Below are positions 1-1,450 of a DNA stretch of 38,473 nt, in pieces; position 1 is the first letter of the stretch, and the number at the start of each line of letters is the position of its first letter. Under the pieces are notes generated by a model, which did no database searches, was not told where the DNA came from, and saw only the letters and a list, made by a program, of their open reading frames with translations. The position numbers and the translations under genes are program-made. The stretch comes from Dehalococcoidia bacterium (GTDB lineage: Bacteria; Chloroflexota; Dehalococcoidia; Dehalococcoidales; BS750m-G39), in NCBI GenBank assembly GCA_030608005.1, contig JAUWIX010000012.1, positions 1 through 38,473 on the forward strand, given 5' to 3'.

Positions 1-31
1 GGCTACGCAGGTTCGAATCCTGCCCCCTCCA
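1..31 (+). tRNA. 3' end of a tRNA, probably tRNA-Tyr (cut by window edge)
   Basis: The visible part is a T-arm (GCAGG stem, TTCGAAT loop, CCTGC stem, 7-23), an acceptor 3' strand CCCCTCC (24-30) and discriminator A31. No CCA is encoded. The acceptor implies a 5' end GGAGGGG, and the preceding bases look like the end of a long variable arm, which fits tRNA-Tyr. The conserved Tyr-Thr-tuf order of many bacteria supports this. The anticodon lies outside the window, so the identity is inferred. Confidence 0.8.
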
Positions 32-53
32 CTTAAATATGATATGATGTAGA

Positions 54-84
54 TTAGACGCTATACAATAAAAACTGGTATAAT
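54..84 (+). promoter_or_regulatory. Native tRNA-Thr promoter, now upstream of the integrase
   Basis: A perfect -10 TATAAT (79-84) is preceded by TTAGAC (54-59) at 19 nt, or TAGACG at 18 nt. Transcription would begin near position 91, just before the tRNA-Thr 5' half at 93. Because the 3' half of that tRNA copy is replaced by element DNA, the promoter now appears to transcribe the integrase gene. Confidence 0.65.
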
Positions 85-92
85 GTTCTAGC

Positions 93-130
93 GCCCACAT
101 AGCTCAGTTGGTAGAGCACGTTCTTGGTAA
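93..130 (+). repeat. Left direct repeat (attL-like): 5' half of tRNA-Thr
   Basis: Identical over 38 bp to 1378-1415. It includes the acceptor 5' strand GCCCACA, the whole D-arm, the anticodon 5' stem CGTTC and the loop TTGGTAA. After the loop the expected GAACG is replaced by CAATG, so this copy cannot make a functional tRNA. The first in-frame TTG of the integrase reading frame (108) lies inside it. Confidence 0.9.
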
Positions 131-140
131 CAATGGGGCG

Positions 141-941
141 GTGCTCGGTGAGCTTGTTTTCGAGGACTTGGTAGCCCGGGGCAGGAAGGTGGAGACCGCT
201 AAGCGGTGGCTGTCTTGGGTGAACAGGTTTGAGGCTTGTAGCGGAACTAAGCGTAAGTATGACAGGAGCGATGTCGTGCGGTATTTAAGCTGGTTACGGC
301 AGCAAGGTTTTAAGGAAGATTCTATAGCTGTGATGTTGAGACCGGTAAAGCTTCTAGCTCAGGTTCAAGGATGGGAGTTTCCCCACCTGGCTATGCCGAA
401 GGTGAGGGATAGTGATATAAGCCGCCCAGCCTTTAGCTATGAGGAAGTTTGCCAGATTATTAGGAGAGGCAAGGAAGTTCTGTCTAGCAGGGAGCTTGCT
501 TACCTAGCATTGGCGACTACGTATGGTCTGAGGCGTAAAGAGCTAAGCTGTTTAGGTGCGATAGACGGCACGATGACTGTAGAGACAGTCAAAGGTGGGC
601 CGGTGACAACTCACCTGGTGCCTGAGGAGATTAAGCCGTATTTAGCAGGCTATAGGAGAGCTGAGGTTAGTTATATGAGCCTGGTATTCCGGAGAATAGC
701 TAGCAAGCTCGGTCTGGCTGATCGAGGGGAATATGGCTGGCACTCGATAAGGCGTGCTCTGGTCACTGAGTTGGTGACTAAAGAGGCTCCTTTGCTTAGT
801 ATTCTGCGTTTTATGCGCTGGTCTGATGCGAGTCTGAAAGGTCAGTTTGGAATGGTAGCAATCTATGCTGTCAATGACCAGGAGCAGATAGACAGGAGTA
901 TTTTTGCGGTGCACCCTTTTATACCGGTATGGCGTAACTAG
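141..941 (+). CDS. Tyrosine recombinase / site-specific integrase
   Basis: A phage-integrase-family recombinase expected to catalyse integration and excision of the element at tRNA-Thr. With the GTG at 141 as start it is 266 aa. An N-terminal SAM-like core-binding helical domain covers about residues 1-85, followed by the catalytic domain. Visible catalytic motifs are GLRRKEL (box I Arg, about R131), VKGG (beta-hairpin Lys, about K151), HSIR (H201/R204), MRWSD (Trp at the second His/Trp position) and AIY (Tyr, about Y242). The set looks complete, so the enzyme may be active. The start is uncertain. The frame is open from a TTG at 108 inside the tRNA repeat, and neither start has a good Shine-Dalgarno. 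The gene lies directly downstream of the tRNA promoter and reads in the same direction as the tRNA. Confidence 0.88.
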   Translation: MLGELVFEDLVARGRKVETAKRWLSWVNRFEACSGTKRKYDRSDVVRYLSWLRQQGFKEDSIAVMLRPVKLLAQVQGWEFPHLAMPKVRDSDISRPAFSYEEVCQIIRRGKEVLSSRELAYLALATTYGLRRKELSCLGAIDGTMTVETVKGGPVTTHLVPEEIKPYLAGYRRAEVSYMSLVFRRIASKLGLADRGEYGWHSIRRALVTELVTKEAPLLSILRFMRWSDASLKGQFGMVAIYAVNDQEQIDRSIFAVHPFIPVWRN

Positions 942-985
942 GTCAAGGGCGAACAAAGAGAGTCCGTAGGAACTAGTCCCTTGAC
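942..985 (+). repeat. Inverted repeat immediately after the integrase stop
   Basis: GTCAAGGG (942-949) pairs with CCCTTGAC (978-985), an 8-bp perfect stem with a 28-nt loop. It starts right at the integrase stop codon. It could be part of the integrase mRNA 3' end or a recombinase arm/accessory site. There is no T-run, so it is not a classic terminator. Confidence 0.5.
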
Positions 986-1017
986 TCGTGGAGAAGTAGT
1001 TACTACACTGGAGCCCC

Positions 1018-1050
1018 GGGGGGCAGCGGAACCAGCCCGAGCTGCCCCCC
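1018..1050 (+). terminator. Strong hairpin, possible terminator of the integrase transcript
   Basis: GGGGGGCAGC (1018-1027) pairs perfectly with GCTGCCCCCC (1041-1050) over 10 bp with a 13-nt loop, followed by TTAAT. The stem is very GC-rich and well placed to end the integrase transcript before tRNA-Thr/tuf. The T-tract is short, so the terminator call is moderate. Confidence 0.5.
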
Positions 1051-1129
1051 TTAATAGAAATTAGAGTCCAGATGAGAAGCTCTGTAATCAAAATCTAGGG
1101 TGTTTTGATGTTAGGTGAAGGATTTAACT

Positions 1130-1357
1130 ATGGTTAAGCCGTTAAGAGAAGCTGTAGCGTTAACGAGAGCGTGCTGTCGCGTGGTGGGGGCGGCAGCCCA
1201 CCACGCTTGGCTGCGAAAGCAGTCTAAGAATTCTATTCTAGTAAAGTACTTAATAGTCTTGACTATAATCCCGTTAATGGCGGTCTTAGTAAAAGGGAGT
1301 AATTGGTATGAGCGGTGGTCTAGTAGGCATCTTGACGGAAGGAGAGAAAAGTGTTAG
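1130..1357 (+). CDS. Small putative membrane protein of the tRNA-Thr element
   Basis: A 75-aa ORF starting at ATG 1130, with a GAAGGA Shine-Dalgarno about 7 nt upstream. The frame extends to GTG 1115, but the ATG is better placed. The N-terminal half is basic with a Cys-Cys pair. A hydrophobic stretch of about 17 residues (roughly 38-55, YLIVLTIIPLMAVLVKG) would form one membrane helix, followed by a charged tail rich in Arg. I recognise no family. A perfect 10-bp inverted repeat (1179-1206) lies inside the coding region, which is unusual and raises the alternative that this is a structured non-coding stretch. It is the only other gene candidate in the element. Confidence 0.45.
   Translation: MVKPLREAVALTRACCRVVGAAAHHAWLRKQSKNSILVKYLIVLTIIPLMAVLVKGSNWYERWSSRHLDGRREKC
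1179..1206 (+). repeat. Perfect 10-bp inverted repeat near the element's right end
   Basis: GCGTGGTGGG (1179-1188) and CCCACCACGC (1197-1206) pair perfectly across an 8-nt loop. The repeat lies within the small ORF of the tRNA-Thr element and has no following T-run. It may be a recombinase or regulator site, or an RNA hairpin. Confidence 0.55.
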
Positions 1358-1377
1358 CGTTCGGTAGAAAACGTAAT

Positions 1378-1450
1378 GCCCACATAGCTCAGTTGGTAGA
1401 GCACGTTCTTGGTAAGAACGGGGTCACCAGTTCGAATCTGGTTGTGGGCT
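1378..1450 (+). tRNA. tRNA-Thr(GGT)
   Basis: A full cloverleaf: acceptor GCCCACA/TGTGGGC, D-stem GCTC/GAGC, anticodon stem CGTTC/GAACG with loop TTGGTAA (anticodon GGT, threonine), T-arm ACCAG-TTCGAAT-CTGGT, discriminator T1450. CCA is not encoded. The first 38 bases duplicate 93-130. Its present upstream sequence is therefore element-derived, with no obvious consensus promoter close by. It lies 19 bp before tuf. Confidence 0.97.

Follow-up and report, generated by a model that had tools for sequence, protein, structure and literature searches.

A small mobile element of about 1.3 kb stands integrated in an essential tRNA-Thr(GGT) gene of a Dehalococcoidia bacterium, and I consider it fairly likely that this integration split the element's own tyrosine integrase gene at its 5' end, parting the gene from its ribosome-binding site (RBS) and start codon, because a Shine-Dalgarno sequence (SD) and an in-frame GTG lie across the att site and no SD-preceded start is present in the integrated form. 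Self-splitting integrase arrangements are known so far mainly from archaeal viruses and plasmids (SSV, pTN3). All coordinates refer to the window, by which I mean the entire 38,473-nucleotide stretch analysed (GenBank assembly GCA_030608005.1, contig JAUWIX010000012.1, positions 1 to 38,473), and the features described lie on its forward strand. The split is visible with both of its ends in this one element, and the integrase at locus L021 is its one incomplete parallel.

The tRNA-Thr locus and its empty site

The contig starts within a chromosomal tRNA-Tyr gene, whose 3' end (1..32) was recognized by its match to the tRNA-Tyr of L028 in the empty-site alignment, and this is followed by the native tRNA-Thr promoter (55..84; TAGACG-18-TATAAT with an extended -10, 10/12 in the promoter scan), which is kept upstream of tRNA-Thr in relatives and now lies 5' of the integrase. 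A 38-bp direct repeat is perfect, reaches 46 bp at 96% when extended, and consists of the 5' half of tRNA-Thr, with the chromosomal copy at 93..130 forming the attL core and the element-borne copy at 1378..1415 forming the attR core. ARAGORN finds a complete tRNA-Thr(GGT), here the restored gene, at 1378..1450 with tuf following at 1470, and none at 93. The original prediction, that a perfect repeat of the 5' half precedes a complete tRNA gene, is therefore confirmed by the repeat search and ARAGORN in agreement, and its further statements that the repeat ends in the anticodon loop and that a minimal element is integrated in tRNA-Thr hold as well.

The prediction also proposed that relatives be searched for an empty tRNA-Thr-tuf site, and this site is present: the genes run Thr(TGT)-Tyr-Thr(GGT)-tuf, with 56 to 79 bp between Tyr and Thr(GGT). 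Among the loci of 19 relatives this gap is 56-79 bp in most and 136-329 bp in five, and the five longer gaps are probable remnants of earlier elements. When window positions 1-92 are joined to 1378-1490, the product aligns with the uninterrupted G002 locus over nearly every base, differing from it by one 9-bp gap and a few single bases, and the tRNA-tuf locus of this genome matches the loci of its relatives. The window is one end of a MAG contig and the left junction is known from one assembly. As 92 bp of contig, starting within tRNA-Tyr, precede the repeat, one might suspect an assembly error, either across the 38-bp repeat or where the contig ends; however, the left flank is the empty-site flank of the relatives in both order and spacing, and the same class of insertion is found with both junctions in relatives from other assemblies, which makes an artefact extremely improbable. 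Because relatives have the empty site and other Dehalococcoidia carry related integrases at this tRNA-Thr, the element is integrated in tRNA-Thr(GGT), and it possesses the complete recombinase, the tRNA direct repeat with a fragment at the other end and the empty site of a tRNA-targeting tyrosine-integrase element. The refuting outcome named in the original prediction was not encountered, since there are empty sites and the related integrases at this tRNA-Thr have other contents. As had been proposed, and as now follows from the anatomy, the restored 5' half leaves tRNA-Thr-tuf cut off from its native promoter and in need of element sequence for a new one, so that the operon would be transcribed from within the element, where the promoter itself is a candidate only.

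An integrase whose probable start lies across the att site

Between the repeats there are, as originally described, a catalytically complete tyrosine recombinase and a small hydrophobic ORF. The recombinase ORF (108-941) matches the PHROG 216 integrase (E 1.4e-4) and is weak in Pfam, where PF00589 is found at E 0.008 next to otherwise weak SAM-like matches, and PF16795 (Phage_integr_3) is absent among the matches up to E 1; on account of this absence the integrase falls, as judged by sequence, outside the archaeal SSV/pTN3/pT26-2 family. Its catalytic residues R142, K162, H212, R215, W238 and Y253 do not vary across the alignment of 13 family members, and the predicted model (mean pLDDT 77.5) superimposes on XerA, the Brujita integrase, XerH, Tn1549 Int, lambda Int and Cre with Z of 10-13 over ~225 residues, with no arm-binding domain in the protein; that other folds are missing from the PDB list was given no weight. 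The nearest named relatives are from Dehalococcoidia/Chloroflexota MAGs, and a maximum-likelihood tree places the window integrase beside the L088/L017-L019 group, at a node of modest support (84/94). Compared with L088, dN is 0.20 and dS is 1.43, values which show that the integrase has evolved under purifying selection.

The conserved integrase portion, int(C), spans 131..941 with its catalytic residues intact, and the conserved start of the family corresponds to the codon at 135. In the integrated form the in-frame starts are TTG108, which sits within the tRNA repeat, and GTG141, two codons downstream of the conserved start, and an SD is found at neither. An SD and a start near the conserved first residue are present in 11 of 13 close family members; the two exceptions, the window and L021, both adjoin a tRNA. 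At the right end of the element, AAGGAG (1339..1344), the putative SD for a circle-form integrase, stands six bases 5' of GTG1351, and from this GTG a frame (VLAFGRKRNAHIAQLVEHVLG-NNGAVLGELVFEDL...) runs through eight more codons of the element's own and remains open through the tRNA 5' half. This int(N) segment (1351..1415) would meet position 131 in the circle, and joining the sequence at the repeat carries the frame into the integrase to give 291 aa. The int reading frame thus contains attP and is divided by integration, although the use of GTG1351 is predicted. The N-terminal extension of the circle form has no alignment to anything and is predicted to be disordered in the part that was modelled. 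In a shuffle test devised after the pattern had been seen, with att and integrase kept constant and the right end shuffled, an in-frame start preceded by an SD of comparable strength arose in 0.64% of 20,000 dinucleotide shuffles.

GTG1351 also overlaps the stop codon of the small ORF (1130..1357; 75 aa with one hydrophobic segment) by 7 nt, and overlap of a start with a stop is the usual sign of a translationally coupled operon. The ORF itself had no homologue that could be found and its codon signal is weak. Upstream of it, the stretch at 941..1056 contains an inverted repeat (TCAAGGG...CCCTTGA) and then a G+C-rich hairpin at 1018-1050 (fold z -2.4), and the best promoter-like site of the right part, TTGACT-17-TACACT at 981..1009, scores just over the 95% level of shuffles and may function as the element's promoter. 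A TTAATAGAA-like sequence comes after the hairpin, and L003 and L021 show comparable features 3' of their integrases. An Rfam SAM-III match at 1053-1132 was set aside as far under the gathering score.

A simpler account would have the promoters swapped and nothing more, with the native tRNA-Thr promoter driving an integrase that starts at GTG141 or TTG108 and with the upstream SD-GTG as a coincidence. A strong native promoter does lie directly 5' of the integrase, GTG141 is close to the conserved start, and in-frame starts are common in pTN3-related int(C) fragments (PMC8371274), but the lack of an SD at either codon sets this integrase apart from 11 of 13 relatives and the chance of an in-frame SD-GTG across att is ~0.006, and I find this account unlikely. 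The original prediction had itself proposed that the native tRNA promoter drives the integrase, which is plausible for transcription, but translation would lack an RBS-preceded start in the integrated form; similarly, its promoter-swap switch was right in that promoters are exchanged, yet incomplete, because the right end also carries an RBS and an in-frame start, so that the gene is probably split. If the gene is split in this way, the conserved domain stays complete within int(C), so the effect would fall on expression and not on the integrity of the domain.

Related elements in other Dehalococcoidia

Integrases 53-70% identical to that of the window occupy the same tRNA-Thr at L003/L063 (G102, an element of 2.37 kb), L088/L097 (G297, 4.66 kb) and L017-L019, and these related integrases travel with other contents, which is what the proposed search for further copies with different contents was to find. 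A complete tRNA always stands at one side of these elements, and a 5'-half copy is found wherever the far end is present. Restoration of the 5' half had been called unusual; however, it occurs also in L003/L063, L017, L018, L019 and L088/L097, and is hence group-wide. The two 5' halves in G297 differ at one base (CAGCAGG vs CAGTAGG), suggesting a tRNA 5' half that is supplied by the element itself. In these other tRNA-Thr elements the integrase faces away from the tRNA and has a good SD and a start 149-194 bp from the core, and with the core so far upstream of the start their integrase gene is not split; the window integrase has the opposite orientation and abuts the core. Close relatives in the same orientation as the window were absent from all genomes covered (156 in the order, 393 in the class, 52 in the G297 family and 390 in the phylum); no relatives were found in phages, plasmids or viral contigs, and the att pattern of the integrase side was absent from viral contigs.

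The G297 element encodes an ORF2/G2P-like rolling-circle Rep (scoring over the cut-off of PF23343; PHROG 3584 and 3419), and at L097:14808-18098 this Rep and a Band_7/SPFH gene lie together inside the 4.66-kb element. In G005 and G010, the first ~61 integrase codons are left between Tyr and Thr, and the element promoter region is still before tRNA-Thr. Elements of this group thus replace the tRNA-Thr-tuf promoter, and the new promoter can persist after the element has decayed. The N-terminal codons in question are found antisense between tRNA-Tyr and tRNA-Thr, at L010:98-567 and L015:1282-1751. As a separate observation, the last stretch of the long gaps upstream of tRNA-Thr in L043, L045 and L049 (ACAATTAGCTTTGA...) resembles the L003 element-type promoter.

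With a rolling-circle rep gene and cargo in a larger relative, decayed remnants at this very locus in G005 and G010, and no rep gene in the window element, one could regard the latter as a remnant too, in which a deletion removed the rep genes together with the integrase promoter and start and left a dead integrase by tRNA-Thr. Nevertheless, the ORF is intact with all catalytic residues present, both att copies are identical over 38 bp, dN/dS is low, and an in-frame SD-start beyond att would not be expected of such a remnant, so I judge decay to be quite improbable, and the split of the gene by integration remains the reading that I prefer.

At L021:5906-6840 an integrase continues without a break from the 3' end of tRNA-Ile(GAT) and has no SD-bearing in-frame start, which makes it a possible second split integrase. 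The far (right) end of L021 is absent from its MAG, where a search for the core returned the known copy only. L084 was considered as this right end and rejected, since its core differs (GTTCTAACAAGACC vs GTCCTGATAAGACT) and the sequence preceding it looks antisense to a response regulator. In G138, 11.6 kb (L057:1993-13640) with hydantoinase-, CoA-transferase- and thiolase-like ORFs, named by eye, lie between two tRNA-Thr 5'-half copies; given these catabolic-looking genes and no integrase of the window's family, this stretch was not used. The integrase at L024:5935-7640 is preceded at a distance of 20 bp by a core resembling the tRNA-Thr anticodon arm; a tRNA-Val(CAC) is carried along with it, another tRNA-Val 3' half lies close by, and the arrangement may be similar to tRNA-dependent lysogeny (PMC10865867).

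The predicted circle and comparison with known self-disrupting genes

What the split would mean for expression, excision and regulation I infer as follows. Insertion in the tRNA-Thr(GGT) anticodon loop would be carried out by the element's own tyrosine integrase, through an att site that the 5' end of its gene contains. In the circle, with the predicted junction ...AACGTAATGCCCACATAGC...GGTAACAATGGGG, a promoter (perhaps 981-1009), the small ORF and the coupled integrase would form one overlapping operon, in which the AAGGAG at 1339 and GTG1351 start the integrase and translation proceeds through the 38-bp att into the conserved domain. Crossover in the anticodon loop would then insert the circle and restore tRNA-Thr at the right end, shifting the RBS, the start codon and ~21 codons, that is int(N), to the tRNA-Thr side; int(C), now preceded by the native tRNA promoter, would lack a good start. 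Production of the full integrase would cease or drop after integration, and an enzyme made well only from the circle would favour stable integration; excision might require either some weak initiation at TTG108 or GTG141 or the help of a related integrase acting in trans.

This plan closely resembles that of the archaeal suicidal integrases. The plasmid pTN3 of Thermococcus nautili shares 41 bp with tRNA-Leu, and its int is disrupted and the tRNA restored away from its promoter (PMC5495485); in pTN3-type elements attB is the tRNA 5' half, with int(N) left behind the integrase promoter and int(C) behind the tRNA promoter (PMC8371274). Like pTN3 and TKV4, the window element combines a tyrosine integrase, attP within int and ~40 bp of tRNA 5' half up to the anticodon, and its integration would split int and part the restored tRNA from its promoter (PMC5495485, PMC8371274), but its host is bacterial, PF16795 is absent, the element is only ~1.3 kb and what int(C) loses is mainly its start, the conserved domain being retained in full. 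A 2021 review described integrases that disrupt their own gene as exclusively archaeal (PMC8371274). The elements at L003/L063, L017-L019 and L088/L097 share with the window the same tRNA-Thr(GGT), the restored 5' half and a homologous integrase, but are larger and have their own SD and start. Among bacterial elements, Myxococcus phage Mx8 also carries attP in int and integration alters int, but there the start and RBS stay and only the 3' end is exchanged (PMC6070905). In mycobacteriophage BPs, attP lies within the repressor gene and immunity is integration-dependent (PMC4557955), which is alike in that the product of a regulatory gene depends on the integration state and different in that the cut falls at the 3' end of the repressor instead of in int.

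Taken further, a bacterial lineage may have independently evolved 5'-split self-disrupting integrases that are translated from their proper start only in the circle, with the same sequence serving alternately as leader of the integrase and of the essential tRNA-Thr-tuf operon, and with L021 at tRNA-Ile as a second, separate case; I see this broader proposal as evenly poised between right and wrong. If true, the pTN3 plan would have a bacterial counterpart at the 5' end, so that control by disruption of an element's own gene would have arisen more than once, and a ~1.3-kb version without an arm-binding domain would be available for study. The Dehalococcoidia elements as a group also take over the promoter of an essential tRNA-tuf operon and, when they decay, leave theirs in its place.
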